Source: Lepisosteus oculatus
Taxonomy: Eukaryota; Chordata; Actinopteri; Semionotiformes; Lepisosteidae
Assembly (NCBI RefSeq): GCF_040954835.1
Contig: NC_090716.1
Coordinates: forward strand, 15,933,275-15,997,274
Direction: 5' to 3'
DNA length: 64,000 bases
Shown here: in pieces, positions 24,602 through 64,000 of the stretch
How the letters are laid out: every line of letters begins with the position of its first letter
How positions within the stretch are numbered: position 1 is the stretch's first letter
Program-made: the position numbers and the translations under genes
The notes under the pieces: model-generated
Database searches by the model: none
Seen by the model: the letters and a program-made list of their open reading frames with translations, nothing else
What the model was told of the DNA's origin: nothing

Positions 24602-24906
24602 TTAGGGCAGTGATCTGTAGCTCATGTCCCTGCTTAATGAGCCCGAGTACTCCATTCCTTCATTGTAGGAGCCTAGCCCTGTCTTGTGCTGCATGGCTTC
24701 TGTTTCCTTCAACAAGGAGCTGACATCTGCCATGAGGTCAGGGCAGACATACTGCTCCACAATGAAAGTCAGAGGCAGGACCCCCAGGAGTAGAACCCAG
24801 CCCAGGGCCCCCAGCCAATAGGAGGAGCCCAGGCGGGAGAAGTCACTGCTGATCTCGCCCAGATGGTGCTTGGTGAAGAAGGACCAGCACATGACAAAGA
24901 AGAACC
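24602..24906 (-). CDS. Four-pass membrane gene, coding exon 3 (terminal)
   Basis: Codes GFFFVMCW to SLP and the stop: the end of segment 3, segment 4 and the C-terminal tail with the EQYVCPDL stretch. Confidence 0.8.
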
Positions 24907-27900: not shown

Positions 27901-28842
27901 TTTCATACACAGGCTGTCTCAGCCACAGTGCTCGATTCTCACAGCAAACATTCATCATAGCCTCATCTATCACACTGCTTTCTCAGTCTTTCCTGGACTC
28001 CACTCTCAGAATAAAGCTTGCTGAACAGAAACACACACACCTGTACTCAGAGATCATATCCTAACCTCTAATGTTATTAGATTATGATAATATGATATTT
28101 AAAAAATAGAAATGGTGAATAAAAATGATAAACATAAGTTTGCAATAAAAAAGGCAGACAGGTCCCAGAAGTACATAAAACTGTATCTTCCGAATCTTTA
28201 AACTGTCGAAATGATAAAAGTAATAGTTACATTCACTTCACTTTTTATTACCAACAATCTACAATGGCACATTACAGCCTGTAATCAGTTTTAAGCTAAA
28301 GCACGAAAAATCCCATTTTAATTAAAATCCCCTTTTTTCCTGCCCCGTTGTTCTGAAATGAGAACCAATGTAACTAAGACCATTAATAGCTCTGTTCTAG
28401 CAATACTCCTGATCTTTCTGTGCAGCCTGACGTCAGCTGATCCATCTATAGCTCGGAAGTTGGAGGAAGCAAAAATTGTAGTTGAAGAAAAAGAATGAAT
28501 ATACTGCATTTAACAGGGAATCAATGAATGAAAGAAAGAAAAAAGCTTTTTCGATGATGTGATCAAAGTCATTCCCCGTGTCTAGTTTGAAGGACTAGTA
28601 ACGTGGCATGTGTGAAGAAAGCCGGCCTCACCTTTAAAGATTTGCACTCCTGAGGAATCCATGTCCCTGAGGTAACTGTCTGAGTTGGTGTCATTTTCTT
28701 CTTCTCCAGTCCAGAGACCCACACCCCCCAGCCAGTCAGGTGTCCACACTGCGTACATCACACACACGCAGCCCGCGAGACCCAGCACGGACTCAATGAA
28801 GCGAAATCTGCTGGTTAGGATGTCCAGCTCAAACACAGTCAT
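24602..28842 (-). CDS. Four-pass membrane protein, claudin/PMP22-like layout (235 aa)
   Basis: Exons 28632-28842, 25577-25768 and 24602-24906 join in frame into 235 residues, with GTGAGG and GTAGGG donors and TTGCAG and TTCCAG acceptors. Four hydrophobic segments are visible: near residues 14-34 (FIESVLGLAGCVCVMYAVW), 76-98 (VFAVLAFLMAFSGASLCLIF), 112-143 (LYPTTLLLVVLVPTGFFFVM) and 165-188 (LGALGWVLLLGVLPLTFIV). Loop 1 has a W, a GLW and an NDT glycosylation sequon. It lacks the paired cysteines of the claudin W-GLW-C-C signature. The tail is cytosolic by this topology, rich in Ser and Tyr, and ends SYRSLP. It is probably a plasma-membrane protein of the wider PMP22/claudin/clarin-like group, but I cannot name it. 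A TTCCTCCACAG acceptor-like sequence sits directly before the AAGATG start, so a non-coding first exon further upstream is likely. Confidence 0.8.
25577..25768 (-). CDS. Four-pass membrane gene, coding exon 2
   Basis: Codes VLEVERVF through VLVPT: membrane segment 2 and most of segment 3. Flanked by TTGCAG and GTAGGG, phase 1 on both sides. Confidence 0.8.
25769..28631. other. Intron 1 of the four-pass membrane gene
   Basis: About 2.9 kb, AT-rich. No nested gene or clear SINE seen. The smaller intron 24907-25576 is likewise empty. Confidence 0.55.
28632..28842 (-). CDS. Four-pass membrane gene, coding exon 1
   Basis: Codes MTVFELD through VQIFK: the first membrane segment and extracellular loop 1. 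Ends in phase 1 at GTGAGG. The ATG has A at -3. Confidence 0.8.
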
Positions 28843-31800
28843 CTTCTGTGGAGGAAGGCGTCTACCTGCACGCGAGCTGCGAGCTGCGAGAGAGGGAGGT
28901 GTGGAGCGCAGGCAGGGAAAGAAAAACACACTCATGAGAAGAAGCGGGCAAGGATGACAAATACATCAAGCAGCGGAACAAGAGATGAGGGAGAGAAAAC
29001 AATTCACTTTGCTTACCCGCTTTTCTTCTTTCACTTCAGAAAAACCTTCAATTCAGGCACACGTTCTCCAGTTAAAGGATAAGGACAAAAACAATGTTAA
29101 AGAGCAGCGTTTTGGCTTGAGACAGTTAAAAAATGATGGAGGAAACTAAATTCCGACTGATTCAATCGTGTTTCTGGTTTCTTCACAGAAGTGGGAGAAT
29201 AAAAAGTTTTTTAGAAAGTGGTGTTTTTTAGAAAGACACCACCATATACAGAGAGTTCAGGTTTGTCGCTGACACGTAATCAGAGTGCCGCACAAAGCAC
29301 TAGTGACTTCTAGGTGATGTACAGTACGTTATCACTCTGTGTACACGAGCGAGCAGTACTGTTTTCCATTCTTTGTACAGTAGTTAACCCCTGAGACAGA
29401 AAACCCCTACAGCAAAAAAATCCCCCCCCCCCCCCCCACAAACGTCAGCTAACCTCCCCCTCCCCTCCCGCCAGCAGAGCCAGCCCCCTGCACGTTCTGC
29501 TGATGACTGGCTCACCAAGTAAAAGCAAAAGACCCAGCAGGAAAAGAGACCGGCCTACTGCTCTGAAAGTGAAAGAGTGCCGAGCGAGGAAGTCCCTACA
29601 TGGCAGCTCGCAAACGCCGTGGAAGGGAAACTCTCACGGCCCCGTCAGGGGAAGGGTGACACGTCAGAAACCCCCGGCACGTCGGAAACCAGCAGTGGGG
29701 GGCATGTGTGGGGAGCTCTAGGAAGGGGGCACGCGCGCGCTGGAAAAAAACAGCTCTAGCGAAGCCCCTCAGCAACACTAAAAGTTCACTGGAGGGCTGG
29801 CATTTAGCGGCGAGGATGACTTGTCCAGGCCCACACGGAGCGCGGCTGCCATAGTAACCTCTCTCCAGCCACAGTGACCATGTGGGCTTCGGAACGGAAT
29901 TTTCTACGCAGTCAAGATTTCATTGCCCTCCCACAGGTGATGCCGACGGCGCACTTCACACTCCTGTGAACAAATCCTGATGCGATTTGCACTGGCCGGC
30001 CAGAAGAGAGGTCTTGTAATAAAAAGCTGTTAACTGTACTACCTTTCCTTTGCAAGTTTTCCCTGAATTCAAACAGAAAAATACCTGGAGGATGTGGAGG
30101 ATTCATGTGAATTAACTATAACTACCAAATAACTATTTAATCCCATATATTTTCTTACTAATTCTTAACCAGTTTAAATGTGATGGAAGAAAAAAAAAAC
30201 CTGCTTTATTAGTGACTAAATGAATTACCACAGGCTCAGTACTGCTTAAAGTGAAATTACAGGGCAGTAGGCACCTCCTGTTGCAGAAGAATAATGACAT
30301 CACTCATAGTTTATTGGATATCCATTCTTACATGTAAATAACAAGAAGGTTAAGAGATGTTATGTATTATTCTGGCAAACAACTTAAACTAAAGTTAACT
30401 ACATGAAACTACAGCATTGCACATACTCAAGGGCTATTGTTGGACACTTACTGAGCTTGTCAGAATACTTTCAACAGGGACTGACTGTATTGTCCTTGTG
30501 TAATCAAGATAAAGTGAGCAAAACAGAGCTGATGAAACCAGTAGGGAACCGTGAATACAAATGTTATATTTTTAAGGATATTTTGAAACTCTACAACTGT
30601 TTAGAATTGTAGGAAAGTAGACTGCGAAAGAGAGTTTAAAGGTATTGAAATAGGATCCATACAATCATAGAGGATGGATGACAACAGCTTTAAACATTCT
30701 GCATGAAGCTACATGATACATTCCAAGAGTAATTAAATGAAAAGCTAGAAAGCAACCCAAATGGCTTAATTAGGTGAAAAAGATGGAGATACAATTCAAG
30801 ACACTGGGCAGATGACATTTATTGTAGTTAACAACAGGATGTTACATGTAATTATCAAAAATACAGTATAAACTATAAACGCACAAATAAGAAACACTGA
30901 GACGCCTGTGAAAATGCCCTACTGTAGGTGGTTTATGTTGGGGGGGTGGCACAAGAAGAGAACTGGGCCATAACTGGTGGGTGGGGAGTTGTGAGACCCA
31001 CCAGTCTCCTAACCCCCCAAGGGGGTGGGGTCATGTGTTCCCCATCCATTTAAACTCTAGTAACCTGTATGAGCCACTGTGCTCTGGGCTTTGCCTTGTT
31101 TCATGATGACACACGAGTTTCATCTTGGAGATATTGTGGGGAAGCAGTGAAAAAGGGCAAAAAGTGCCGATACACTAGAAGGACTGTAGAATTTAAATCA
31201 AGGGATATAAGGTTAAAATATCTTGATTTCTGTAACCTGTTTACATGAACCATTACAGAATTAAAGGAATGCTGTACATGCACACGTTCAAGATCTTTTG
31301 AAGCCTGAACAGGGAAGACGATAAGGAGACCCAAGTCAAGTATTCAAAAATCCTCAAAGACACTGACAAACATAAGCCAGTGGATATCTTCAGCCTCAAC
31401 AAAAACATGAAAACATCAGAATCACGAATCACAGGACACAAACAGAAGCTTAGGGGAACAGAGAACAGGAGGCACTTTTCCAGCCAAAGGGTTTGCCAGA
31501 GTCTTTCCAACCTCAAACCCATCATGTCTTGATGCTAAAACCTTCACATCTTTCAGGAAAAAGGCTAGATGAAATCTTGAAACAAAGTTATTAAAAAGTA
31601 CTAAAAACCAAATGAGCTAGATATGGGGAATGTCCCAAAACTTTCTTATGTTTTAGTTGGCAACTTAGGAAAGAAACCAATACTACAGTAAATAACTAGA
31701 TGCATCAAAGCAGAAAAGAGAAAATTACAAGGCACTGATCTTGCCTTGAAACACGTTTTGAAATGTGAAATCCCTCACATCTAAATTAGAGAGGTTCAAT

Positions 31801-33869: not shown

Positions 33870-34225
33870 TCACTCCTTGGGTCTCTCTACCAGCTTACTG
33901 AATACTTCGAACACCTCGGGGTTTTCCTGGGCAAATGACTCTGGGGTGTTCTTCTCCAGCCAGTCCGAGGTGCGGATCTGTTGCCACAGGACGCCGATCA
34001 AGCTGTCCAACCCTGAGGCCGGGGGGCCCGACTGTAGCGAGACCTGGACGTCGTCGTCAGCATCACGGCCCAGAGAGACTTCAGAACCCGGACAGGACTG
34101 CCTCTTTCTCAGCTCCGACTGGGCTAGCTTCGTCCTGCCCCCAGAAGTGCCAGGTTTCGCCTTGCTGTCCTCCAGCACGGTCCCTTGGTCCAGTTCTTCC
34201 AGGGTTCTCCTAAGTCTCTGCATTC
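33870..34225 (-). CDS. accs: SANT-ACCS exon 15 (C-terminal tail)
   Basis: GMQRLRRTLEELDQ then a polar tail with an SDWLEKNTPESFAQENPEVF segment, to the stop. The first residues match the end of human ACCS; the following roughly 100 residues do not. Confidence 0.85.
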
Positions 34226-37200
34226 CTGGAGTGGAACAGCAGTGTTACTGAGATTCTCTCACACTGACACGCGAAAGCCAGAAATGATAACCGAATTAGC
34301 CTTTTACACCTCTCAGCTTTAATTGTAAGCTGCAGCTCTTAAACTGAACTGTTAAATAATAGAAACGCATTATTTATTTACAATTAATTTAATTTAAATG
34401 TCTGATACAAAATTACATATGATTAGTCTGTTACTATTGTTATAAAACACACAATCACATTTACATTTAGGGTTATATTTATGTTACAGAATTACACCTT
34501 TATAAATGGAAATTACTCTTTATATTTTAATAAGTTACTTTTATTCCACTTTTACATCATTAATAATATTACATTAATATAATACAGCATCATTACTTAT
34601 CATCAATAATTAGATATAATCTAATAGTTTTATTATAATACACTCATAATAAACAGATGTTCACATAAGGGTATTCAGGTCTGCATCCCATTTTGAAAAG
34701 AGTACCTGCTTACAGCTGTGAAGTCACAAGTGCAAACCTTTCAGAAGAACAGTAAAAGAACAGGAAACAGGGAGCACTTTGATCAAGGCTGTTCAGCTCC
34801 CAATACACTGCCCTGGGTAATAGCCAGAATGCATCCAATTTTCAGTGCCAACAATGAACTGTTCTCCATTGTACTCTGGGACCAGACAATTTCTGCTAGT
34901 TCCTTTTTAATTGGTGAACTCTGTTAATAAAAATGCAAATGTATCAGAAACTAGAATATATAGGTGTCCAAATTAAGACCCACCAGTAGAACTGGATGAA
35001 GGCCTCTTTCTCTCTGGCCTGCTATGGCTGTCCGGGGAGGGACTGGGCTTCTCCATTGTTTCTAATGGTAGGAAGGCTGAGACACATTGACACCTGGGAG
35101 GATGGAAGAAGACAGAGCAGACACTCACCTAGCTGAAGCCGATGCGTCTTGTCAGCGAATACAATTCTGAACCAGCCCGGCGTGCTGCAATGAAAAGCCT
35201 TCCCACAGCTGACCAGGACCTTGTTGTTGAGAAACTGACGCCAGAGGGTCAGCTCCTCCTCAAACGTCTCTTCTCTGAGGTACTACAAAAAAAACGAGAC
35301 CAGACCAATAACCGTGAAAACATTAAATCAACATGCCATCTCATCACCCCCAGGGATGGAGAAATGAATGGGTTAATCTACAAGCCATCGTTTTGTCAGG
35401 ATCAGAAATACTGAACTGCTTCCCAAGAGACCAGACAACAAGGCAACAAGGTGATATCAGTAACTCAGCGGGCTGGAATCGTTAAACAGACAGCGCTGGC
35501 GACGCCCACCTTTCTGAAGTCAACCCAGATGTAGAGCCCTGCTGGTCGGTTGAGAAAGGGAACATTGAGGGCCTTCAGCTCACTGACTATGTACTGGTGG
35601 GCAGTCTTCAAACGAGTCCGATTGGCCTGCAGATAGACCCGATCGATCCAGTCTGCAGAGAAACAGGAGGGTTAATAGTTCTTAAGGCCTCGTCTGGACA
35701 CACAGCTTCTGTGCAATCTGCACAGGGATTGTTTTTGCAGGGACGCTCTCTGCATGGAGTTTGTGTGCTCTCCCCATGTTCACATGGGTTTCCTCTCACA
35801 GTCCAAAGACATGCTTCTAGGTTAACTGACTTCTGGGAAAACTGGCCCTGAGGTGTGTGTGCGTGTGCGCCCTGGTGTCCCGTCCAAGGTGTCTCCTGCC
35901 TTGTACCCACTGTTCCACCTTCCCTGCATATCTGTATTCGATTATTCTGTTTCAAGACTGCACAGTAAGCTGATTATTGTATTGCTGCAGAAAGCTTTGA
36001 GACTAACCTCATTAAGTGTTTACTCACAAAAGGTAAATTTTACCTAAAAACATTTCTCAGTGCAATTCAAGATAAAACAAACTGCACAGCAGCAGTACTT
36101 TAAGGAAGACAGAGTGGGTTTAGTTTGCTCAAAGGGAGGCTAGATTTCCACCACATGGGGGCGCTGTGAGGCGGGGGGACAGGCGTGTGTCATGGGGCTG
36201 CTGTGGGCCCTGGGAGAGGTATACCCCTGTCGCTTAGGAGCCGGGCCACCTGGTGCTGTGTTGGTCCCGGCACACCGTGGAAACTAGCCAGCTTCTCCAG
36301 AGCCTCCACCACCTCGCGGTTCTCCGAGTACAGCGTGCCCACGCGGATCCCGGACGCGGAGAAATCCTGCGCAACACGAAGCAAGGTTGGAGACGTCCCG
36401 CTGCCAAACACCTCCACTCTTGTAAGGCAACATGTCATGCAGAATTAGAACGAGCCCACTCGCTGCCCAGCCCCTCTCACAGCTCAGGGACCAGCGATCC
36501 ACACCTGCTCAACACCTCTCGGCTCTCACCTACAGTACACCCGCAGTAGCTCCAACGCTGTAGGACTGCGTGTTTTTAAAGCAATCCACTTGCCAATCTT
36601 GAATAGCTGGAAACGCGAAATACCAGTCACCAGCGTACCTGCATGAACAGCTCCGACATACCTGTACGCTTGATTTCACTTTGATCACCGCTCTTGTGTT
36701 CAGCACCTTCCTTACCACTATTATCATTTTATTACGCGTGCCTGCAATCAGATCTGCCGTTTCCTTTTGTACCAACACAATATAAAACAGTAAATTCCTC
36801 ACACTAATAACACAAAAAAAGAAAAGGGGGGATTTTACTACACTCTATGCTTAATTTCTGTCCAAAGAATGACATAAAATGTATCGCCAAGCAGAAGCTC
36901 ATAAGTGAGCAGTATTGCGTTTATAGAGCCAGAAAACTGCAGGACAGGTTCCTTTCTCCAAGGACACAGAAAAGGCGACACTTACCTTACTGAGCCCCCA
37001 CAGCACATGAGTCCTCTGCGGGTCTGGCAGTCTGGAAACACATAAGCGACCTTTCAGTCACGAGTACCCCCTCAACAGCTCCAATCTTTCCTACAGCGCC
37101 TTGAAAGTTTTAATCAACACTGGATTTAATCCATCCGCCCTCCATTTTCTAATCACTTCTTCCAATTCAGGGTCACAGAGGAGCTCAAGCCTTTCACAGC

Positions 37201-40200
37201 CAGCAGAAGGAGCAATGTGGGATACACCTGGATGGAATGCCATCGCTTGGAGGACTCAGATACAGATACACCAAGGCCAGCTGTCTGGTGGGAGCACCTG
37301 GAGGAAACCCACACGAACATGGGGAGAACATACACTCCACACAGACAGCACCCCAAGTCTGGAACTGAACCCAGAGCTCCAGTGCTGCAAGGTAGCTGTG
37401 CTGCCCTTGCATTTCCTCAATTTAGCAAATGGGTTCAAAGGGATGAAGTGCGTTTAGGCAGAAGAAAAAGCAAGTCACTGAAGCTCTGATTCAAATGTTC
37501 TTTGAGGGTCTATGATGTACTGAAATATAATGTATTATAATGTCAAATTCGCAAGTTACACAATTGGCTTAGTCTATACCAAATGATTAGTGTAATAAGT
37601 ATGATTTAGATTGGATCTATGAGTCTTTATAATAAGATAAGAAGGGTGTCGATTAACTTTTAATTTTCCACATTTAAAAAGGAGCAAGTTAAAAAGTCAA
37701 AAGACTATTTAAGACCTTTCTTAAATAGCATTTCCTATCATAGGGTGATATCAACTTAAAACATGAAAAGCACAGTGCTTTTCTGGATTTCTAAGCAGTG
37801 CTTTTTGTGATTTATGACAAAAATAACATTCCTTCTTAATGTGGAAAATTAGTACGGTGCTAAATACGGTACGGTACTGTCCTGCACATGGAGTCTGACT
37901 CAATTGCTTTAAATTTCACGTTACTAATATCCCCCCAATCTGTGAAAATCAGTAGCTGAAGGTGGTGGAAGGTAGACTTTCTCAGCCCAGAAACAGTGTT
38001 TCTTCTGCATGGTGGCAAACATCAAAATCCCCCAAAAAACTCTGAGCAGAGCCCGTCACTCAGTGCCACTTACTGTACCCCAAAGCCACAATCCAGCTCC
38101 TAGACGTTCCAAGTTTTAGTGATTTGCGGTCATTCATTTGTCACACATTCATTTGCTGTCATGTCATCAATTTATAAAACAGATCATGTACATTTCTGCT
38201 TTATGTTCAATTTAATATGAAACACTTAATGCAATAAAACATGGAAATGTAGTTTAGCAAATTTTCAATTTCTTTGGATTTTTTAACTCAAATTTTGTGT
38301 CTGTCAAAATTCCACCCTTTAGCTAGAGCAGGGTTACAGAACTGGAAGACTCACTAAACTAATCCTTGAAGCAACTTCAGGGAAAAAAAATACTACAACA
38401 ACCATCTTCATAAGTATTTAAAGGATAAACAGTGGGATCAATACAGCACATAAGGAGCTGGCTTTACGAAAATACTGCACTGGAGAGGCCACAGTTTGAG
38501 AAGTACTAAGCTGGAGTCTAGCCTTGGACACAGCTGGGATTGAGTCATTCGGCTGATCTGGACTGTTGGACAAAAACAACCAGAAGACCCGAGAACGTTT
38601 GGCTGAAGCCCCGTGGGGGACGAGCTGAACTTACTTGCTGAAACTGAGAACACTGTGAAAGCTGACACTGTCGTCAAACACTGAAAGCATGTAGACTTCA
38701 TCAACAATGCTGTGGAGCTCGTGCCTGAAAGAGGGACAACAACGAGACACTGACAGGGAGTCCGAGATGAGCAGCTTGCAGGGCATCAGGTCTATCACAG
38801 AGCCACACACAGGAGCACGAATATTAATTAATTTCCAAATTAACGTTTTGTAAGGTTCAAGACCACGGGATACAGGACCAGGCAACAAAGAGTGGACAAG
38901 ATGAACGTCTTGTTGAACTTGTATTTACTCATCATAATGAGTTTTTAAAATACAACTGAAATACTGGCGAAATGTCACAGGTGAGAATTTGATTTTAATT
39001 TTTTGGAGTACTCAGTGTTTGTTTTTTTTACTTTAGGAGCCAGGCTGATATTTATAATTATGGAAAAGCATAGAACATGAATCAGACTTCCCAAAGGAAG
39101 AAACAAGAGTGGCTAATTCCATGCTTAAGAGTATAAAGAAGTTGTTTCAGTTTCAGTCGTGTCATCTTGTCCTGACGTGTAATTTCTAACATCTTGGCCT
39201 GCAAGTACAGTAGATCAGTTAGGGAGGCAAATCTTCCCTCTCATTGAGAATATATTTACCATTGAGACTGTTTCATCCATTTGAAACCATTATGGAAGAC
39301 CACTGATCTTCAGAAGCTGATAACCCACCTCTTTGCAAATTCAAGGAATTCTTTCATCTCACTTGGAGAGTAGATGTCTCCCAGGGGATTATGAGGGTTG
39401 ACCAGGATAAGTGCTCTGACATTGATACCCTGTGCGGTATGAACACAAAGACTAAGCAGAAACCCAAGGCTATAGCATTCCACAATTCTGTGAAGAATTA
39501 GCAGTCTTATGATCTTCTGTTCATGAAGTAAAAACAGATACACAAGGTCTAAGCAGTCCATTGAACAATACAAACGACAGGTACAGGATATGAATGTACA
39601 GCTCCCATTATCCACTTTATATCCAATTTCCATATCAATTTTAAATTTCGGAATCAAGATAAGATCGTTAACCATTAACGGTTTACTATTACTGATCAAA
39701 CAGGTTCACCAATGCAAAAATCATGTAGGTACTGGAGAAACAAATAAAAGAAAATCTTGTATCATCCCACTGTCGGTCATCAGTCATCAGGGGACACTGT
39801 CATATCACAAGTCGAGTGAGCACCAAGACCATTCACCCACAGCACTGCTAAGTCACTTCTGTAGCTCTCGCTGGTTATACCAGCAGTCATCTAAAAACAG
39901 GCCCAGACCAGGCTGGGAGGCCTCTTCTAATTACGATACTGGCCTTCCGTGTGAACCCTCTCTGTCCTGCACTATTCTGTGGAAGGAAGTGACTGTTCTA
40001 TCTGAAGCCAGGTCCTCTCATCAAGCTGTGGTTGAGTCAGTCAGCCGAATTTGAGTCTGCCAGGCACGGGGTCACTCACCTCCAGCCTGGCCTCCTCCAG
40101 GGCCTTCTCCAGCTTCTCCACCGTCAGCTGGAAGGGACGGTCCCCGCTGTACCTCGGCTGGGAAACAACCAAGAAGAGACTCGCTTCAGCTCAGGTCTCG

Positions 40201-43200
40201 GCGGAAACGCTAACTAAACTCACAAGGTAAATGAACAAAGAGGAGGATCTGCAGAAACTGCTCGAGCAGGACGGAAGAAGGGTGTCACACGAGGGCTGTC
40301 CTGGTCAGAGAGCGCGAGTGGCCTATGCACCGGGTACCTGGCAGTCGAGATGGGCGTGGACCATCCTGACCCCGCTGTACAGCCTGACGTCTTCAGTTAT
40401 CACTCCGTAGAAGGGCGTCGGAATGAGGATGGCATCTGAAAACACACACAGCCTGAGCCAAGACTGACCCGGACACTGCCCACTGTTCTCATGCGCAATA
40501 CAGATGTCGATGAAGCTAAGAACTAAATTGTTAGTTCAATTAAATTTTACCTGGAACCTTCACTGCCACTTTCTACGATGAAATCAGCACATCAGCAGAA
40601 AAAAATATCATGGTTTGCTCATCTCTACGGGCCTCCTGAGTCTCTCAGCCAAAGGCTGCATGGTCTGAGATCCTTAGACTGGGCCTCATCACTAATGGCC
40701 TGCAACCAGGATCCCCAGTTGAACGCTAAAGGGGGACAGAGTTGGCATCACTCTCCCAGTATTCTCTTGGGTTTTGGGCAAACAGTGGCTCATGCAGTTT
40801 CCTGCAGCCTTGTAATGATGTCACTAGGTGCCAACAGTACTGAAGAGGAGACAGGCACAACGGCAGGGAAGAAGAGTTGGGTGAGCATGCTAGTCTTCCC
40901 CATCCTCACTTCTTCCAGGGGCTGCCGCTGAGGAGCTGAGGCTTCAGCAAATAACTGGAAATTGTTTTATTTGGTCTAAAACAAGACAAATGAGCCACAG
41001 ACATCTTCTGTGCGTGTTTCAGGAGCTGAAAGCCTTTCCTGATAATGAACTCCAGTTGTAAGCATACAGACACTGACATTGTAGTGTTTTAGAAAGGCTT
41101 TATCCTATCAGCCTGTGCGTGCTGCAGGTCTTTCCTGACAGCTGACAGCCTCTTGTGGCCACTGTTCGTCACTGCACCTGCCATTTCACCACAGCAGTCA
41201 GTCAGTCAGGGCTGCCGGCTGCAGCACCACTCGTGCTGGTGGCACTGACCGCGTCTGACAGGGTGGTTCCCAGCCCTACTCCCAGGGCACCACTGTGTCT
41301 GCTGTGTGTCCCAGACAAACTCTCAATCACCAGCGCTGGGAGACTTATTGATCAGACTGCATGTTCAGACTGAGGGGTTCACCAGCGCCCATGTTGTTTC
41401 CAACACCTGCAGCAGACGGCACTTTCAGCCATCGCTCTTTAACTGGCTTTTAACAGCGTGATTTTGCAGATACAAAAATGAGATGCACTGAATGGCAGTT
41501 TTTGGGAGTGTTTTTGTCGTTACATTGGTTGTTCGTTGAGAGTGGATCTCTAATTACCAACACTAATGCCAGCAGCCTGGTTTTCTGGAGTTACCTCCTT
41601 CCAGCGATGTGCTGGCTTACCTTCATGATCACACAACACTGCAGCAAGACAGGAGAACAGAGACCCACAGCCGTTCATCACCACCACCTGAAGGGAGAGG
41701 AAAGCAGAAACACGTCCTTCCTGGGATGCAATAGCTGGGAAACAGCACACAGCTCGTTTATACTCGACTCCTCTGCAGCTGCAGTGCTCTGAGTCTTTGG
41801 TCCACCATGTGTCTGCAATAATAAGTTGGCCACAACAATGGATTACAGCTATCAATAAATAGTGAAAGACCTGGCCCTCAGGGGCTTCCCTATTTTCCAA
41901 ATGCACAGAATTTTTATTGTTTATCATTGCCATTTATTTCGTGTGTATTACGTGAGTAAAGTAGTGTGCCTTTTTGCCTTTCACACAACATCAGAATGCT
42001 CTGAGGCTTCTGCCTGTCCTTACGCAGTCTTATTATCATCAAAGGAGTTGAACACAAGAGAACTTGACACTGTTTACATCGAGAAGCCCCGCAAGCTCTT
42101 GTGTTTCGCGGTAAGGCAGGCGGGGGGGAGCCCACCGCAACTTGGACACCTGTGGCACACGCACGAGGCGACTCACGTTGTCCGGACTGAGAGGCGAGGG
42201 GGCCGTGCAGTAACAGGACAGGAAGCTGGCGACCTCCTCCCGCAGGCTGTGGAGACAAGGGGGTGAGAGACCAGGCCGCAGGGCCCTCCAGCAGCAGCCC
42301 TCCGCCCCGGCTGACAACAACACCTCTCTTGCGGAGAATCAAGTCAACACAAAACGATCAGGTTTGATCCTTTTACAGGCCCAAACTCTAACAAGGGGGA
42401 TTAAAAAACAATGGATCCATCAAACTTTTACAGTGCGGCTAACGCCAAGGCCTGGCTTGTCGTAAATCGTAAATTTTAAATCTTTACTTGTTGCTTTGCA
42501 GCCAACACCAGCCGACGCAGCTCCCTCTGCGTGCCTATTTACATTGAAGCGGTCTTAGTAATGGCTTTATTCCCTACAGGCCCATGGTGAGCCAGAGCCA
42601 GGCTTGGCAGATGCAGGCTGCAAAGCGGTCACATACACTGGATGGGACATTGTACAGCCATCCTGTATGTATAGACAGGGTGCCACCCTATATCTGACAC
42701 AAAATAACTAAACTGTCTATGGATTTTCTGTAAATGAGAGCTGTAATCTGACAACTATTTTCTTTAAATACATAGTTATACTTCACTTAAAGGCTGGCCA
42801 TGCAAAAAACCACAATAGCACAGGTAATTCCCTCAAGGTTTAGCCATAAGGCATGCTTGCAATAAAAGAGAAAAAGGAGGAGCTGGAATCCAAGAGCATA
42901 ATGTGATGATAAATACTCAAACTTGTATCCAATATGCAAATGGAACAGTAATTTCTAATGTAGTTCAGGTGGGTAGCTGCATAGGCATGCGTAGGCTGCA
43001 AAGGAACAAGTAATAGGTTTATTCCATGCTGAAAAAAAAGAAGAAAGAAAACAACGTTTCGGCCGTGGAGCCTTCTTCAGGTGAAACGAAACGTGTTTTC
43101 TTTCTTCTTTTTTTCAGCATGGAATAAACCTATTATTTAGTAATTTCTAATGTGCTTGCAGGCTGGAAATTACAAACAGCTCCCCCTGCTGGCCTCAATG

Positions 43201-46200
43201 CTGCTGCATCAAGTGCCTTGTTCCTGGAAATGTCATACAATCTGAAGCAACTTACTGTACTAAGCGACTTTACAGATAAGAGGCACTGAAAACTGTACAA
43301 CCCCCATTCAGCGTCTGGCTTTGTCAGCAGTACAGCATGATCCTGCTGGAGTACAAAACCCATGATATCAACACGATAAAGCTTCCTACGTAAACAGCTG
43401 TCAAGATAAGATGGCATTGGCTGTGGCCACAGGCTGGGTCTGTAGATGGGATGGAGTTTCGGACAAGCTGTTCTGTACTCATCCCTGATCTGGTACTACT
43501 CAGCTTTTCCATGCATGATAAAGGACAAGAACGAGCGAGCAATGTTAAACCAAGATGCTGCACAACACTGTGTTGATCAGGAATGACAGAGATAGCGTAA
43601 CAAAAACAAAAAGTCTTGAACCACTTATCACCCCCTGGAAGATACTCTTCGATCTGTAAACTAGCAGCAAATGAATGGGCTAGGCTGTTTGGTCTTGCTT
43701 TTATTTTTAAATTTTCATAGGCTATAGTTCAGAAAATTTAGCATTATCAGAGATCTGCCATATCCTAGTCTCCTGAAAGAGATGAAATAAATCCCCTTGA
43801 AAAATTCTGGAAACCATTCCCAAGCTTAGAAACCCCACAGATCTTTGGAGCAAGGAGCGTGTTGAAGCCGAGAACAAATCTCACAAGTCCCCAAACAACT
43901 CAGGTCCTTGATGATGATCAGTTTTGCAGGTCTGCACCTGACAAACTGTAGACTACAATTTATCTTCTGCCAGATGTTTAGCTTTTTAGCATAAAACCAC
44001 AAACAGAAGTCCTTCTGGAGTTTCATTTTAAAATGCTACATTATACAAAACCACACTGCAGCACAGAAAAGCGGCATCACAGGAAGAGCCGTCACCGTTT
44101 ATCCTGATTAACTCTGATGACTTAATGTACAGTACACATCAAGCACTTCTTGGTCATGTTGCTTGGCAGTATGGCAGTAAGGCAGCCAGACAGTGGGGTT
44201 TGCCCCTGCTAGAAACCCCAAAATCCTTTTGGGGGAGGTGACCTCCCATCCGCCCTCACCTGCCCAGCAATAACAAACAGTCAGGTGGCCAAACACAACC
44301 AGCAAGCAAACACCTCCTGCAGTGATCTGCTGCCTGCAGAAGGGAGCAGATCTCCAGCTGCACACAAACACAAGGAACTGCGCCATGATAAAGGTTAAGT
44401 ATTTGCAATGCAGGCGTGGCCATTGCTAGACTTTTGTTTTGTACCTGCGTGCCAAGTGAACTGGTTTCTTGCATTGTGAATACACTGTTCATGGTTTTGG
44501 ACCATATTGGTACCTTAGCACGTCTCCCCAGAGATACCAACCAGCACCAGTCCCACAGTGTCCCAGTGCTCCCAGCTTCTCCAGCGCCAGGTGGGTACTT
44601 ACAAGGGATGCCCTTTCCAGTCGGGATAGCGCAGCAGAGGGGCATCGATCTGAAACATGTCCGACTGCGTGAGCTGAGGAGTGACCGGAAACAGAGAAAG
44701 TAAGAACCACAAACTGCACTGCTGAGCTGGGAGCTGCAATCAAAGCAAATTCCAAAAAACATTCGGGAGAAGCCCAACTGAGCACATGCATCCCAAACTA
44801 TGGGAACACACTCAGGGAAACATCCCTGGATCAGATATTAGAACTATGAAAACTGACATGAAGAGCTGACGTCAGCAACACTCATCAGGACCTGGTTGAG
44901 CTCCAAAGACTCGGCAGTGGCGCAGGAGATGAAGTACGCAGCCAGATTAGAAAGGACATTCCTAAACCAAGTGCCAATGCTGGAATTTCAAAGCTCTAAA
45001 CACAAACTGGCACAGTAAGATATAAAAAGACCATGGACATCCCTTGATTTAAATGGATATGATATAAAATGTTGATGTCTAATTGAAGACTAGAAATAAC
45101 TAAACTTACAGCTGTGTAGAGCAGAACTCTCACTTGATTCCGAAGATCTGAAACGTTTTGGAAGTTACTGATGCAATAAGCACCTAATCTGTTCAAGTAC
45201 AGTTAAACTAGTCCTTGAAAGCTGAAGCTTCTTTATTCCAAATGAGACAGACATGATGTGACTTGATCAATCTTGCTGGACTGGATATATATTAATTTAT
45301 AATATTATATATATATATCAATCTGAGACCTTCACAACAGAGTCCAACCCTGCTACCAGCTTGTCATCCTGCAGCTCACAACTGACAACCCGCTGGAGCC
45401 CAGCAGGTGTGAGCCCAGCCAGTACCTGGATGGAAGACCTCCTGGGAAAAAGGTTGCCTCTGGTGTTAGTGGGGCCAGTAGGGGGCGCTCACCCTGCAGT
45501 CTGTGTTGGTCCCAATGCCCCAGTATAGTGACAGGGACGCTATACTGTAAAAAGGCACCATCCTTTGGATGAGACGTAAAACCGTCTCTCATCTGACTCT
45601 CCACGGGCATTAAAAATCCCAAGGAGTTTCTCAAAAATGGTAGGAGTGTTACCCTGGCATCCTGGCTAAATTTCCCATTGGCCTTTACCAATCATGGCCT
45701 CCTAATAATCCCCATCTCTGAACTGGCTTCATCACTCTGTTCTCATCCCCATTGAGAGCTGGTGTGTGGGGAGCGGACTGGCGCACTTTGGCTGCCGTCA
45801 CATCATCCAGGTGGGGGCTGCACACTGGTGCTTTACCTGTAAAGCGCTTTGAGTGGAGTGTCCAGAAAAGGGTTATATAAGTGTAAGCAATAATGATTAT
45901 TGCTATGCCTTTTGTTTTCCTATGCTGAAAGCTATGCTGTCTTTTCACTGCTACTGGTGCCCTGCAGGTGTCACACTTGCCTCGTGTTCATTCTTGACAG
46001 ACACTGGACCCAAGCGGCAGGTGAGCTGGAGTGCAGGTAAAGTATCTCTGAGGTGTTGTTTGAGTTCTGTACCACAGTGTCCCCGCAGTAGCGAGTCCTA
46101 CTTACCCGTTTGGACAGCAGGTCAAAGCACAGCTTGTTCTCACTGACACCAAAGTTAATGATACCCTGAAATGTAAAAAAGAGGGAAATTGATGTAGTGC

Positions 46201-49200
46201 AAACAGCTGAATGAAACACAAACCACTTCAAACTTCCTCTTACCCAAAAGCAGCTAAAGGAGTGAGACAATTTGATAAATCGGCATCCCTTAGCTGCAAG
46301 AATGCAACTGAAAAGAAACTACGCCGTGGGTGTAGCCAAGACAAGCACTGCGCTGAGGAGCGAAACTTTTCCGTTGCTGCTTGGTTTCCGTCCTGCCTTC
46401 CAAGTCGTCAAGGAAACCACGCAGAAGATAAAGGATCACCTGTGTGTTTTCAACTTTCTTTTGTAAATCCCAACACCTGTACGAAGGCACATACACACTT
46501 ATTTCTGCACAGTGTCACTCCTTTAGCCACAGGTACTCACTCCGATCTACCCCCTTATTAGAGGCTTGGCTCCCAACTACAAATCCTTGCAGGAAGAATC
46601 CTGCAAGGTGGGAAAATGGCAGCCGGAAGAGGAGAAGAGGGGTCAGAGTCCTCTTAAGCAAAACACCCCCTGTCCCCCCTCATCGGCCGCAAGCCGGCGC
46701 TCGGAGTGGCCAGAGGTCACCCCGCTCTCTGCGCGTGGGGGCGGGGGGCACGTACGTGGGGGTTCTCGTCCTCGTCGTGCTTGTCGGCGTGGTACAGGGC
46801 GTAGCCCTCCTGCAGGATGCCGTCGTGGCCTCGGATGCGATTCCCGCGCCGGGAGAGGTAGCGGCTGGCGCAGAGGGGGCGGGGGCTTCCCTCCGGCTCG
46901 GGCTCGGGCACGGGGGCCCCGGCGGCGCACGTGGGGGCCCCCCCGGGCCGCAGGGCGCTCACCAGGCCCGCGAAGACGCCGAACATGCGGAGCTCGTGCT
47001 GGCGCTCCAGCTCGGCCCGCCGCTGCTCCAGCCGGGCCCGGCGCTGCTCCGCCTCGGCCTCCCGCTGCAGCCGGCACTCCTCCAGCGCCAGGAAGCGCTC
47101 CTCCGCCGCCCGCTGCGAGCTCAGGAAGCGCACCAGCGCCTCGTCCAGGGACTCCCGCCCGCGCCCCGCCTTGCGCCGCTTGCGCAGCCGTGGCGCCGCG
47201 CCCAGCGAGGAGGGGCAGCGGGCGGCCGGGCGGCCCACGTCCCCCGCCGCGCCCGAGCCCCCGGTCCCCGACGAGCAGGCCGCGTTCTGCTCGCTGAAGC
47301 CTGGAAGAAAGAGACCAGCGCTGAGGCGGGTAACGGAGACACTAAGACGAGCTCCAAGCTCACAGCTCAGCCTTTTACAATTACAGGGGTTTTAATGAGA
47401 ATTTGTCACTTTTGTGTTTTCAACTATGAGCAGAAATGCTGGAACCCACTGTGCTCCTATAGTGAGGCATGAGTGTATAATGGTTAACCTGGAAGGAAGC
47501 CAGAGGCTTGTGGATGGCATTACCGTGCACAAGGCCAGTGTCTGTAGAAAACTCTTGCACATACAGTACTGGATGTGGAACCACATCCTGCATTGTGTCA
47601 GGGGCCAGGCACACAGCAACACAGAGCATGATTCTGAATGACACAACCCAGCAGGGTCTTCTCAGATACTCGAAAGGGAAAGATGTGGTTCATTCTTCTC
47701 AGTAAAACATATTACTCTCAACAATACACTGGTAACGGTTATACTCTTATACTCCACGTCCGCAGATATTCAGTGCTGTGGGTGGACTGGGTCTTCACTG
47801 TAAGCCAAATTGGGTCAATATATTAAAAACAAAATAAAAGACAAATGTATAGTTACAAACACAAGATGGCTTAGGAAGGAGAGATGAAAGGCATTTGAAA
47901 ATATTATTAAATGAATTCTAAAAAGCACTCGTATATGCAGTGTTTGCACACACCAGTGAACAATTCATGTTAACCTCGTGATCAATTGAGGAGTTCAGAT
48001 AAACAGTGCCCGGTGATTTTGCTTTTGATAAATGTTATATTGTTTGGTTTTAGTTATGTGCAGCTCTCGTGCGAAGAATGATATCTAAAAAATTATAATC
48101 GTCACATGAACGCCAAAGGAAACCGTGTGCTACCAATATACAGATGTGTCCCCATATCAGTTTAAATAAAGAACAGTTATTTTACATGTCACTGCGTTTT
48201 CAAATTGGTTTTTTTCTGCGATTTTTCACAATAAAATACATGTCTAAAACACCCATGTTTCTCTCCCACAAGGATGAGTTTTGTAACTAAAAGTGATCTG
48301 ATCGTCCCGGGAAAACCTCTGATCTAAGCGCACTCGGACAGCTGGGAAGATATCTCTGCCTGCCAGATATCTTGCTCTGGAGAGCAGCGTCTTTTCTAAA
48401 GCGAACGAGGAAATATTTAATCCAACTACAAGTAATACCTACTGCATTTTCAAGTTATTAAACGCCTACATTTCCAGTATCGGCGTTAACCTGCCAGCTC
48501 CACAGCTCCGCTTTGACCAGAACGCCTAAAAACAGATCTGCGCGAACTGATTTTCACTTCCTCGAAATCAGGCGACCGTAACTTTGCACTTTACAATGCT
48601 ACAAATGAGAAACGTAAGATGTTCGAAAATTATAACGTGTTGCTTCCCCTCTAGCCGCTAGACCGGGGTCTGCTGCCCGTTACTACGCAGAACTCCTCGG
48701 TTCCGTCGCCAAACGGGTGCAATACTGCATTGGAGTGGGATACAGCTGCTTAATACCATCTATTTGAAGTGTAGTACGCTTCTTTAAAAACTGTCTCACA
48801 TGCATGGTGGATGCATTCCTGCTGTCGCACCAGAGAGACGCGTCCGAGAGGTGCCGGACCCGGAGCACAGCCTGCCTTGTAACTTCTGAGACACCCCGGG
48901 AGGCCACGACAGCGGCCCGGGTCTCCGGGTTCGGCATTACCTGAGGGGGAGATGCTGGCCTCCAGGAGCCCGTCCTCACGCCCTCCCCCGACCGACCCCT
49001 CTCTCTCCAGCCCCAGCGGCCTGTCCGCCTCCGGCTCGTCCCCGGAGCCGATCGGATACAGCATCTCAGGCGGCGGGTCCGGGGTCAGGCAGGGGTCGTC
49101 GGAGTCCACCTCCTCGCACTTGATCTCCATCAGCTCGCCGGCCTTCGGGGGGTGGCCAAAGATGAAGGCGCCGGGCGGGGGCGGGGGCGGGGCGAAGGCG

Positions 49201-49604
49201 TGCAGGTGGTAGCCGCTCTCCACGCCGGGCACGCCCTGCAGCACCTGCTGGGCGATCACACTGCCGCCCAGCGAGCCGTAGGAGATGGACGGCCGGTTGG
49301 TCAGCACCCGGTCCATCACCTCGTAAAACTTCCAGGTGCGTCCCCCGCGCACGGTTTTCTGGTTGTCCTTGATGCGCCGGTACTCCAGCTTCATCTTCTT
49401 GATCTTCTCCCGACACTGGTCCCCGGTGCGGTGGATGCCCTTGTCCCGGAGCACCTCGGCGATGCGGTTGAAAACATGCTGGTTCCGGAGGCAGCTCTCC
49501 AGCTCCATTTGGACCGACTCGTCCGCCCAGAGCTGCAGCAGCTCCACCACCTCGGGGTCCGACCAGTTGCTGCCCCTCTCGTACTTCTTGCCCCGAAAAT
49601 CCAT
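33870..49604 (-). CDS. accs: Myb/SANT-like domain fused to ACC-synthase-like PLP enzyme (894 aa)
   Basis: Fifteen exons with GT-AG borders and matching phases join into 894 residues. Residues 12-98 form a Myb/SANT-like (trihelix-type) DNA-binding domain: NWSDPEVVELLQLW, NQHVFNRIAEVL, GDQCREKIKKMKLEYRR. Then come a proline run, a possible SUMO site (IKCEE, K162), a basic patch (RKRRK, 261-265) and a coiled coil (270-327). From residue 368 it follows ACCS to about 790. Enzyme motifs are present: SEN 411-413, PTPFYG with Y502, NPHNPLG 562-568, DEVY with D593 and Y596, catalytic K630 in SKDF, R638, and R764 in GWFRIVF. These match the PLP- and substrate-binding residues of the fold-type-I ACC synthase family. 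Human ACCS reportedly lacks ACC synthase activity but deaminates L-vinylglycine, and it lacks the SANT and coiled-coil parts. The C-terminal tail is about 100 residues longer than an enzyme core needs. The ATG at 49604 has G at -3 and +4. Acting in the nucleus is an inference from the N-terminal half. Confidence 0.88.
35129..35282 (-). CDS. accs: SANT-ACCS exon 14
   Basis: YLREETFEEELTLWRQFLNN through GWFRIVFADKTHRLQL; R764 is the substrate-carboxylate arginine. The acceptor is TTTTGTAG. Confidence 0.9.
35510..35652 (-). CDS. accs: SANT-ACCS exon 13
   Basis: DWIDRVYLQANRTRLKTAHQ through YIWVDFRK; donor GTGGGC. Confidence 0.9.
35736..35935 (+). repeat. tRNA-derived SINE copy in SANT-ACCS intron 12
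   Basis: ctctgcatggagtttgtgtg, gctctccccatg, cagtccaaagacatgc and a degraded 3' part. Opposite in orientation to the gene. Confidence 0.65.
36225..36366 (-). CDS. accs: SANT-ACCS exon 12
   Basis: DFSASGIRVGTLYSENREVV through RLLSDR; R638 belongs to the phosphate-binding GxRxG stretch. Donor GTATAC. Confidence 0.9.
36986..37031 (-). CDS. accs: SANT-ACCS exon 11 (ends at catalytic Lys)
   Basis: KLPDPQRTHVLWGLSK; the final codon is the PLP-binding lysine, K630, so intron 11 splits the SKDF motif. Confidence 0.9.
37131..37412 (-). repeat. tRNA-derived SINE copy in SANT-ACCS intron 10
   Basis: In minus orientation: B-box-like gggttcagttcc, ctgtgtggagtgtatg, gttctccccatg, and an atggaggg-type tail. 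The head is near 37412. Confidence 0.7.
38635..38724 (-). CDS. accs: SANT-ACCS exon 10
   Basis: HELHSIVDEVYMLSVFDDSV and on. Holds D593 and Y596 of the DEVY motif. Confidence 0.92.
39329..39429 (-). CDS. accs: SANT-ACCS exon 9
   Basis: GINVRALILVNPHNPLGDIY and on. Contains the NPHNPLG cofactor-binding box. Confidence 0.92.
40080..40157 (-). CDS. accs: SANT-ACCS exon 8
   Basis: PRYSGDRPFQLTVEKLEKAL and on; 26 codons, phase 0 on both sides. Confidence 0.88.
40338..40435 (-). CDS. accs: SANT-ACCS exon 7
   Basis: DAILIPTPFYGVITEDVRLY and on. The PTPFYG tyrosine (Y502) is the PLP-contacting position. The donor is GTACCC, weaker than its neighbours. Confidence 0.88.
41621..41687 (-). CDS. accs: SANT-ACCS exon 6
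   Basis: VVVMNGCGSLFSCLAAVLC, corresponding to the NGGASLFSAL segment of human ACCS; exits in phase 1 at GTAAGC. Confidence 0.88.
42177..42246 (-). CDS. accs: SANT-ACCS exon 5
   Basis: FLREEVASFLSCYC through LSPDN; CTCCACAG acceptor, GTGAGT donor. Confidence 0.88.
42482..42525 (-). repeat. End fragment of the fold-back repeat family
   Basis: tttacttgttgctttgcagc and the following gacgcagctcc match the reverse complement of 42974-43012. Confidence 0.5.
42974..43134. repeat. Fold-back repeat with hammerhead-like core
   Basis: The unit starts tagctgcataggcatgcg and continues into arm 43011-43059, which is the near-perfect reverse complement of 43089-43134. The roughly 29-nt centre reads, on the minus strand, CTGAAGAAGG then CTCCAC then GGCCGAAACG. 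It lies in SANT-ACCS intron 4. The same family occurs at 50.7 kb and as fragments elsewhere. Confidence 0.75.
44603..44673 (-). CDS. accs: SANT-ACCS exon 4
   Basis: LTQSDMFQIDAPLLRYPDWK and on; TCCTCAG acceptor, GTAAGT donor, phase 2 exit. Confidence 0.88.
45305..45318. repeat. (TA)n microsatellite
   Basis: Short alternating TA run directly before the 5S-derived SINE. Confidence 0.7.
45340..45900 (+). repeat. 5S-rRNA-derived SINE (SINE3-like)
   Basis: 45400-45480 follows the 3' half of vertebrate 5S rRNA: ggagcccagcaggtgtgagc, then ccagtacctggatggaagac, then ctcctgggaaaa, the internal Pol III promoter region. The body has ggatgagacgtaaaaccg and the tail gtaaagcgctttgagtgg to ttatataagtgtaagcaat. 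It sits in SANT-ACCS intron 3, opposite in orientation to the gene. Confidence 0.75.
46106..46165 (-). CDS. accs: SANT-ACCS exon 3
   Basis: Residues 404-423, GIINFGVSENKLCFDLL and on. It carries the SEN motif matching the AEN/SEN box of ACC synthases. Phase 0 on both sides. Confidence 0.9.
46756..47300 (-). CDS. accs: SANT-ACCS exon 2: coiled coil joined to ACCS N-terminus
   Basis: Codes the end of codon 222 to residue 403. It starts after TTTCTTCCAG with GFSEQNAAC, continues through RKRRK and the heptad-rich coiled coil (RLEQRRAELERQHELRMF), a Pro/Ala/Glu linker, then RYLSRRGNRI and GILQEGYALYHADKHD, the ACCS start, to NPH before GTACGT. This is the fusion-defining exon. Confidence 0.88.
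48941..49604 (-). CDS. accs: SANT-ACCS exon 1: Myb/SANT-like domain
   Basis: Codes residues 1-221 and one base of codon 222. Contains the whole DNA-binding domain, the proline run and an acidic segment. The donor is CTCAG then GTAATG. If not spliced, the frame stays open to a stop at 48750, so a SANT-only product is possible. Confidence 0.88.
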
Positions 49605-50698
49605 CCCTGACCCGGCCCGCCCAGGGACCCGTCTGCCCTCGGAACCGAGCTGGACTTCAAACCGGCCGGTGGTTCTGACCAGCCAGCCTCTACACCGGTT
49701 CGGTGTCAAGGGCCAGTTCTTCAAGTGTATTAAGAGGGGGGGGAACCCGTTCTTTGCAAGAACGTAACGCTTACTGTTTTTTTTTCTACCCCAGTAACCA
49801 CCTGGTTAAATGCTAGCAACTTAGACTGAACTAATTACAGCTGGTGTGCATCGGGCTATACGAATAGCCAATTATTTACCCCGGGTTTTCTTTAGCACTT
49901 ATCTGTTTCATTTCAGCCCGAGTGAAACGCTGCAGGTCTGTGCACTGCTGGTGTTGCGGCTGTCGCCCGGACTCCCTATTACGAGCTGCGAGCCCCCGGC
50001 CCGGACTGGCCCGGGACAGCTCGCTCGGCTTGCAGGGGCTGGAGGTGACAAGTCTCCCGAAACGGTAAGACTGGTTATTTTGGCCACACAATAAAATGGG
50101 GGAAGAAGCGTACATTTTACATCCGGGTTGACGGCACATGCGTGCTGTCCTTATTCCGGGATAACTTTGGTCCGTGTCAGTCATTCTGCACAAGCTAGCA
50201 AAGGGGCATTTCACAGGAAAAGAGCAAAACAGAGACAGCAGGCGAGATAGCCGCAACGCAGCCCGCCGGCGCCCTCTTGTGGAAGCTGGGTGCTATTGAA
50301 TACTCTGAAAGGGCTCAGTACAGCACAACCTCATACAAGCTCAGCAAGCCAGTAGACTTCTTCAGTATTTAAATAAAAACATAAACTGAAGAAATTACAC
50401 TTCTTTGCTCTGCAGAATCAATTAACTATCTCTAACTCTAACTGCAGCCTAAATCAGAAGAATTTACAGTGTTGACTGTTGTGAATAGAAAGTCAAAACG
50501 TTTTTAAAATAGAAATAACTTGGACATAAATAAGTAGTTAATTATTTAACAAGTGACCAAATACCTTTTTTAAACATTTGTACCTCAGTAATCACCTGGT
50601 TAAATACTAACAGCTTAGACTGAACTAATTACAGCTAATATGCTGCTTATACAAGTAGTTCAAGTAGGGAGCTGTGTCATCATGTGTAGGCTGCAAAG
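49605..50698. other. Upstream region of the SANT-ACCS gene
   Basis: GC-rich to about 50050, then AT-rich. 49790-49850 and 50580-50640 share a word-for-word similar stretch (gtaatcacctggttaaatac or its near match, then gactgaactaattacagct), a local duplication of about 60 bases. No other gene seen. Confidence 0.45.

Positions 50699-63246: not shown

Positions 63247-64000
<754 letters not shown>

Follow-up and report, generated by a model that had tools for sequence, protein, structure and literature searches.

In bacterial regulators of the MocR, GabR and PdxR kind, the DNA-binding part, a GntR winged helix, is N-terminal and the part that binds pyridoxal phosphate (PLP) comes after it. MocR factors unite a DNA-binding domain and an aminotransferase-fold PLP domain in one chain, an architecture reported to be able to convert PLP or amino-acid binding into gene control (PMC5320631). 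Here we describe a gene of the spotted gar, Lepisosteus oculatus, whose product likewise joins a DNA-binding-type domain to an aminotransferase-fold PLP domain. It lies on the minus strand, from position 49604 to 33870, of the window, by which we mean the whole 64,000-nucleotide stretch analysed (contig NC_090716.1, positions 15,933,275 to 15,997,274). Unlike the bacterial regulators, the gar chain has a Myb/SANT domain in its DNA-binding half and possesses a long linker, a coil and a C-terminal tail; it also belongs to an animal. Pfam returned five families on the chain at E up to 1, GntR not among them. Of the 63 NCBIfam families matching the gar protein, the 25 listed are all PLP-enzyme or MocR-like models, each under its cut-off; the MocR-like model YczR matches the PLP domain at residues 443-783 with 63.6 bits, far under its cut-off of 487.4, and many aminotransferase models do the same. 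VIA-align of the full structural model gave no GabR chain among its best 50 rows, which excludes nothing. The gar-type and MocR fusions presumably arose independently.

Fifteen exons join in frame into one 894-residue chain (2685 nt, the sole stop being terminal). In the exon assembly of the window all 14 introns are GT-AG with continuous phases, and the junction 48941/47300 is in frame because the end of exon 1 and the start of exon 2 are both phase 1. Exons 2-15 were located with human ACCS catalytic sequence as a guide; for exon 1 and the beginning of exon 2, their own open frames served. A sequence-only reading of this DNA had proposed the fused gene, and re-assembly reproduced its coordinates, exon count, junction and chain length. 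The order which that reading gave for the chain, a trihelix-type domain, a SUMO-like site, a basic patch, a long coil and a full PLP enzyme, is supported by Pfam, the alignment and the structural model. Over its full length the chain is 100% identical to a database protein, P0001, which is a prediction for spotted gar and bears the name ACC-synthase-like protein 1 (ACC, 1-aminocyclopropane-1-carboxylate). The exons and the features within them are as follows.

48941..49604, minus strand: exon 1, residues 1-221, Myb/SANT-like (trihelix, PF13837) domain and acidic/proline-rich linker
49308..49571, minus strand: Myb/SANT-like domain proper, residues 12-99 (Pfam)
49113..49121, minus strand: SUMO-like site K-x-E, K162 and E164 (alignment)
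46756..47300, minus strand: exon 2, basic patch RLRKRRK, long coil and first part of the enzyme
46951..47148, minus strand: predicted 66-residue helix/coil, residues 273-338 (AlphaFold2)
46106..46165, minus strand: exon 3, enzyme
44603..44673, minus strand: exon 4, enzyme
42177..42246, minus strand: exon 5, enzyme
41621..41687, minus strand: exon 6, enzyme
40338..40435, minus strand: exon 7, enzyme
40080..40157, minus strand: exon 8, enzyme
39329..39429, minus strand: exon 9, enzyme
38635..38724, minus strand: exon 10, enzyme
36986..37031, minus strand: exon 11, enzyme, with the PLP lysine K630 as its last codon
36225..36366, minus strand: exon 12, enzyme
35510..35652, minus strand: exon 13, enzyme
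35129..35282, minus strand: exon 14, enzyme
33870..34225, minus strand: exon 15, end of the enzyme, variable spacer, conserved C-terminal tail and stop
33885..34010, minus strand: conserved C-terminal tail, residues 849-890, predicted helical (alignment, AlphaFold2)

A search for fused relatives scored 7995 candidates and yielded 510 proteins at E ≤ 0.001; the counts given here rest on the best 120 of these 510, which include three gar models (P0001-P0003) and 117 non-gar proteins. The alignment retains 66 of the 120, truncated, near-identical and surplus rows having been removed by eye, while residues at the PLP sites were tallied over all 120. Both Pfam domains, SANT and PLP, are present in 120 of the 120 matches listed. 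The search that the sequence-only reading had suggested, for proteins with both Myb/SANT-like and aminotransferase profiles, therefore finds at least 120 of them, from sharks to birds and platypus. Cartilaginous fishes with the fusion comprise the sharks and ray Heptranchias, Chiloscyllium and Hemitrygon and the chimaera Callorhinchus; other fishes are the coelacanth, lungfish, bowfin, paddlefish and many teleosts; and the tetrapods are frogs, salamanders, caecilians, turtles, crocodilians, lizards, birds and the platypus. A fusion peculiar to gar or to teleosts is ruled out by this range. No lamprey or invertebrate is among the best 120 of the 510 matches. Given the spread from sharks to platypus, the fusion is at least as old as the ancestor shared by all jawed vertebrates, barring parallel origins.

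In the alignment, none of the 66 sequences departs from M1 or from S219-P220 at the junction, and conservation excludes a fusion by chance. Since coil and enzyme both begin within exon 2 (47300-46756, which codes for the basic patch, the long coil and the enzyme start), the two are continuous without any splice. Seven of the 120 rows are complete fused frames of 2559-2964 nt; their contigs measure 2829-3666 bases and exceed the frames by just 270-957 bases, where the gar exons together span 15.7 kb. All seven start with M and cross the junction at SPS-G/D-F/Y, and the best of their proteins is 71% identical to gar. These contigs, which come solely from "lgn", taken as assembled public reads, are too short for introns, so that the frames resemble complementary DNA (cDNA) and must lack introns; any single one could be a retrocopy. 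The sequence-only reading was to be given up if exons 1 and 2 were never spliced together; in relatives of the gar, these cDNA-like frames contradict that condition.

These data bear on the idea that a SANT gene and ACCS are merely two neighbours mis-joined by gene prediction. It draws on the common occurrence of SANT-less models and on two gar models that weigh against the assembly given here: P0002 and P0003 differ from P0001 after exon 1, running through its donor into intron 1, and contain SANT, enzyme and tail with the coil absent. The seven relatives, unlike this read-through, all join at SPS-G/D-F/Y. Because a mis-join is also at odds with the single exon shared by coil and enzyme, with the fusion in all 120 matches listed, 117 of them outside gar, and with the invariant S219-P220, we consider it very improbable and reject a gene-model artefact. 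At the level of sequence, the 15-exon fused SANT-PLP gene is confirmed as real in gar.

How the fusion came about is suggested by an unfused protein of 331 residues, P0304, in which our profiles find SANT (3.6e-23) and coil (1.2e-17) in the same order as in gar. Unlike the gar protein it has no enzyme or tail match, and NCBIfam gives no family on it; it is possibly incomplete. This one sequence suggests that the enzyme was fused to an entire trihelix protein that already had its coil.

What might such a chain do? The gar gene belongs to an old vertebrate fusion. In it a unit of GT-1/trihelix type, composed of the Myb/SANT domain, a disordered linker with the SUMO-like site, the basic patch and the long coil, is joined to a PLP domain of the ACC-synthase family, and the chain ends in a conserved tail predicted to be helical. 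The reading we favour, and hold tentatively, is that the protein acts as a PLP- or amino-acid-responsive, DNA-binding dimer in the manner of MocR and GabR. Enzymes of PLP fold type I form dimers that share their active sites; pairing of the PLP domains would therefore hold two SANT domains together, able to read a two-part site on DNA. The protein would be nuclear, its PLP domain would bind PLP together with an amino acid or a similar ligand, and ligand binding would shift either the placement of the SANT domains on DNA or recruitment by the tail. The principle would be that of the bacterial regulators, reached independently, and a SANT-less short form made from other start sites, as well as the therian proteins, would keep the PLP part alone.

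The N-terminal half fits a DNA-binding role. Pfam places PF13837 (Myb_DNA-bind_4) at residues 12-99 of the whole chain (E 5e-21), with 75.3 bits on the chain and 77.8 on exon 1, above the curated cut-off of 27. Spaced core tryptophans and a basic third helix are the defining marks of this family. W14, W26 and W91 are present in 66 of 66 aligned sequences, and a predicted K/R-rich helix occupies residues 61-81, with 15 of residues 61-79 invariant in the 66. The AlphaFold2 model, built from the 66 sequences (mean predicted local distance difference test, pLDDT, 68.7; predicted template modelling score 0.55), has five helices in the SANT region, at about residues 16-102; for exon 1 modelled alone, ten-residue pLDDT means are 83-96 across residues 11-80. 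Plant GT-1 has a similar DNA-binding fold and is the sole PDB sequence match of the SANT part, of which fission-yeast Sap1 is the best fold match; the solved chains of both, unlike the gar chain, are the DNA-binding domain alone. SANT domains in general are able to bind proteins instead of DNA, and the gar domain might accordingly serve for contacts with proteins or histones, or the PLP domain might act purely as a scaffold for dimerisation; on this view the protein reads no DNA sequence and no ligand. Note d and reference 27 (Koch et al. 2001) of PMC2748086, which report human ACCS to be without ACC synthase activity, would suit that view. We think it unlikely, as the nearest solved relatives are DNA-binding domains, the helix at 61-81 is basic and strongly conserved, and the PLP residues are conserved too.

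Beyond the SANT domain, pLDDT falls below 50 over residues 104-271, a disordered linker. Within it K162 and E164 of the SUMO-like site are found in 66 of 66 aligned sequences (K in 119 and E in 115 of the larger set of 120). The helix at residues 273-338 is E/R-rich and so may be a dimeric coil or a lone stiff helix in the model. The sole tandem repeat scoring at least 80 in the window, at 47004-47068 (21 bases, 3.1 copies), lies inside the coil; 21 bases make one heptad, and the coil may thus have grown through heptad duplication.

The enzyme half is a complete fold-type-I PLP domain, modelled confidently by AlphaFold2 and matching PF00155 (Aminotran_1_2) at residues 411-772 (E 2.3e-66). Its PLP residues are nearly invariant among the 120 fused proteins listed: K630 and N565 in 120 of 120, D593 in 119 and R638 in 117. 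The tyrosine of the DYHG motif is important for ACC synthase (EC 4.4.1.14). Whereas the PLP lysine is in place, this tyrosine is absent: compared with plant ACC synthases (apple, tomato, Arabidopsis ACS7), the fused proteins have W at its position in 114 of 120 (L in 4, a gap in 2), Gly for the Ser three residues before the lysine in 119 of 120, and mostly L, T or S for the Tyr of the PYF motif. ACC synthase activity of the gar protein is unsupported, given these substitutions and the human report in PMC2748086.

One could instead envision a working PLP enzyme, other than an ACC synthase, that SANT takes to chromatin, to act locally through the product it makes or the substrate it removes; DNA would be an address only and not a ligand-regulated target. 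The lysine equivalent to K630 is found in 40 of 40 eutherian and 9 of 9 marsupial proteins of the SANT-less search described below. That therian proteins without SANT keep the PLP residues equally well weighs most heavily against a pure sensor and suggests that the chemistry was kept for its own sake. Deamination of vinylglycine by ACCS, described in a horse paper (PMC12363045), points the same way. For a mere address tag, however, SANT is oddly constrained. Between gar and shark it retains 99 of 105 residues (94%), making it the most conserved part, against 290 of 423 for the enzyme, and the two lineages separated about 450 million years ago. A pure enzyme is hardest to reconcile with this difference, and we regard the tethered enzyme as a serious but somewhat doubtful alternative to the ligand-responsive dimer. 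The sequence-only reading had offered two functional ideas, a metabolite sensed at DNA and an enzyme brought to chromatin, and both stay hypotheses.

The chain closes with the C-terminal tail, in which W865-L866 is found in 66 of 66 aligned sequences. Shark keeps 27 of its residues 846-886 (41 positions), against 8 of 56 in the preceding spacer. With E allowed up to 10, no Pfam family exceeded its cut-off on three tails. The one weak match, to DENR_N (E 0.13, one tail of three), was sub-threshold, and the idea that the tail already has a family name was dropped.

Forms without SANT were sought with an enzyme-only query, for which 120 of 428 proteins are listed and whose length limits shut out chains as long as the fused ones. 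By our own profiles these best 120 comprise 60 with enzyme only, 40 with coil, enzyme and tail, 18 with enzyme and tail, and 2 with coil and enzyme. Several species, such as Malaclemys, Mauremys mutica, Microcaecilia and Polyodon, occur in both lists. Some of the SANT-less predicted models join another start exactly at the G/FSE border, which makes a second promoter for a SANT-less form likely. The window has stretches rich in GC and CpG at 46501-47500 (exon 2) and 48501-50000 (exon 1), with CpG observed/expected of 0.78-0.93; the former could be the promoter of that form.

From the same list we picked by name 40 eutherians and 9 marsupials, leaving the lgn rows unclassed. SANT, coil and tail were undetected by profiles in 40 of the 40 named eutherian proteins, human not among them. 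The sequence-only reading had set human ACCS apart as lacking SANT; this fits the eutherian proteins, and human ACCS itself is not known to have a SANT-type N-terminus. The marsupial proteins are graded (coil, enzyme and tail in 4, coil and enzyme in 1, enzyme and tail in 1, enzyme only in 3), and the platypus has all parts. The remaining 17 enzyme-only rows, 13 from fish, amphibians, turtle and birds and 4 others, are interpreted as isoforms, incomplete models or independent losses.

In an enzyme tree of 34 hand-picked rows, drawn with a midpoint root only, the gar protein falls among the ACCS of its lineage, in a group with those of bowfin, paddlefish and teleosts (95/88). Therian proteins make up one clade (100/98), which lies next to platypus (94/96) inside that of the tetrapods (100/100) and comprises two sets of paralogs. 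The bichir protein also lacks SANT, either as a second case apart from the therian one or because its model is incomplete. If the root is placed outside tetrapods, lack of SANT is the derived condition in therians, and the nesting of therian proteins within fused ones, together with their undetected parts, makes human-type ACCS look like a pared-down descendant of the fused protein. Two points limit this reading: marsupial "isoform X2" names hint at X1 forms that may have SANT, and long therian forms are outside the reach of the length-limited search. It is tempting to go further and propose, as a possibility offered with reserve, that since the jawed-vertebrate ancestor the fusion has been a ligand-reading trihelix-PLP regulator that detects an amino acid at the gene itself, an independent analogue of MocR, which therians dismantled into ACCS remnants. 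ACCSL, too, would then probably be an orphan enzyme remnant of that regulator.

The protein and both its domains are already in public databases; the entry P0001 is the same protein, with the fused architecture in its precomputed Pfam column and a name that covers the enzyme only. The literature searched (titles and abstract beginnings among the matches listed) contained no description of a SANT-PLP fusion. New here are its jawed-vertebrate age, the apparent therian loss and the conserved C-terminal tail, which the sequence-only reading had passed over.

Elsewhere in the window, a minus-strand reading frame at 63250-63771 contains DUF4695 (PF15766, E 1.1e-56), the family of human C11orf96, which adjoins ACCSL and ACCS on 11p11.2; it may mark a conserved neighbourhood upstream of the fused gene. 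Downstream, at 24605-28965 on the minus strand, three frames with hydrophobic stretches resemble exons of one multi-span membrane protein, and the three pieces have no Pfam match at E up to 0.05. Rfam gave no matches in the window at gathering scores.

A SANT-type domain that keeps 94% identity from gar to shark and shares its chain with a vitamin-B6 enzyme is a direct candidate link from amino-acid or vitamin-B6 state to gene control in animals. The fusion may also explain why human ACCS, which takes its name from a plant hormone enzyme, is not known to have a clear role, since proteins of the human type appear to be remnants. If this is true, the wrong half of the protein has been searched for the function of ACCS, and suitable animals in which to study it would be fish, frogs and chickens rather than mice.
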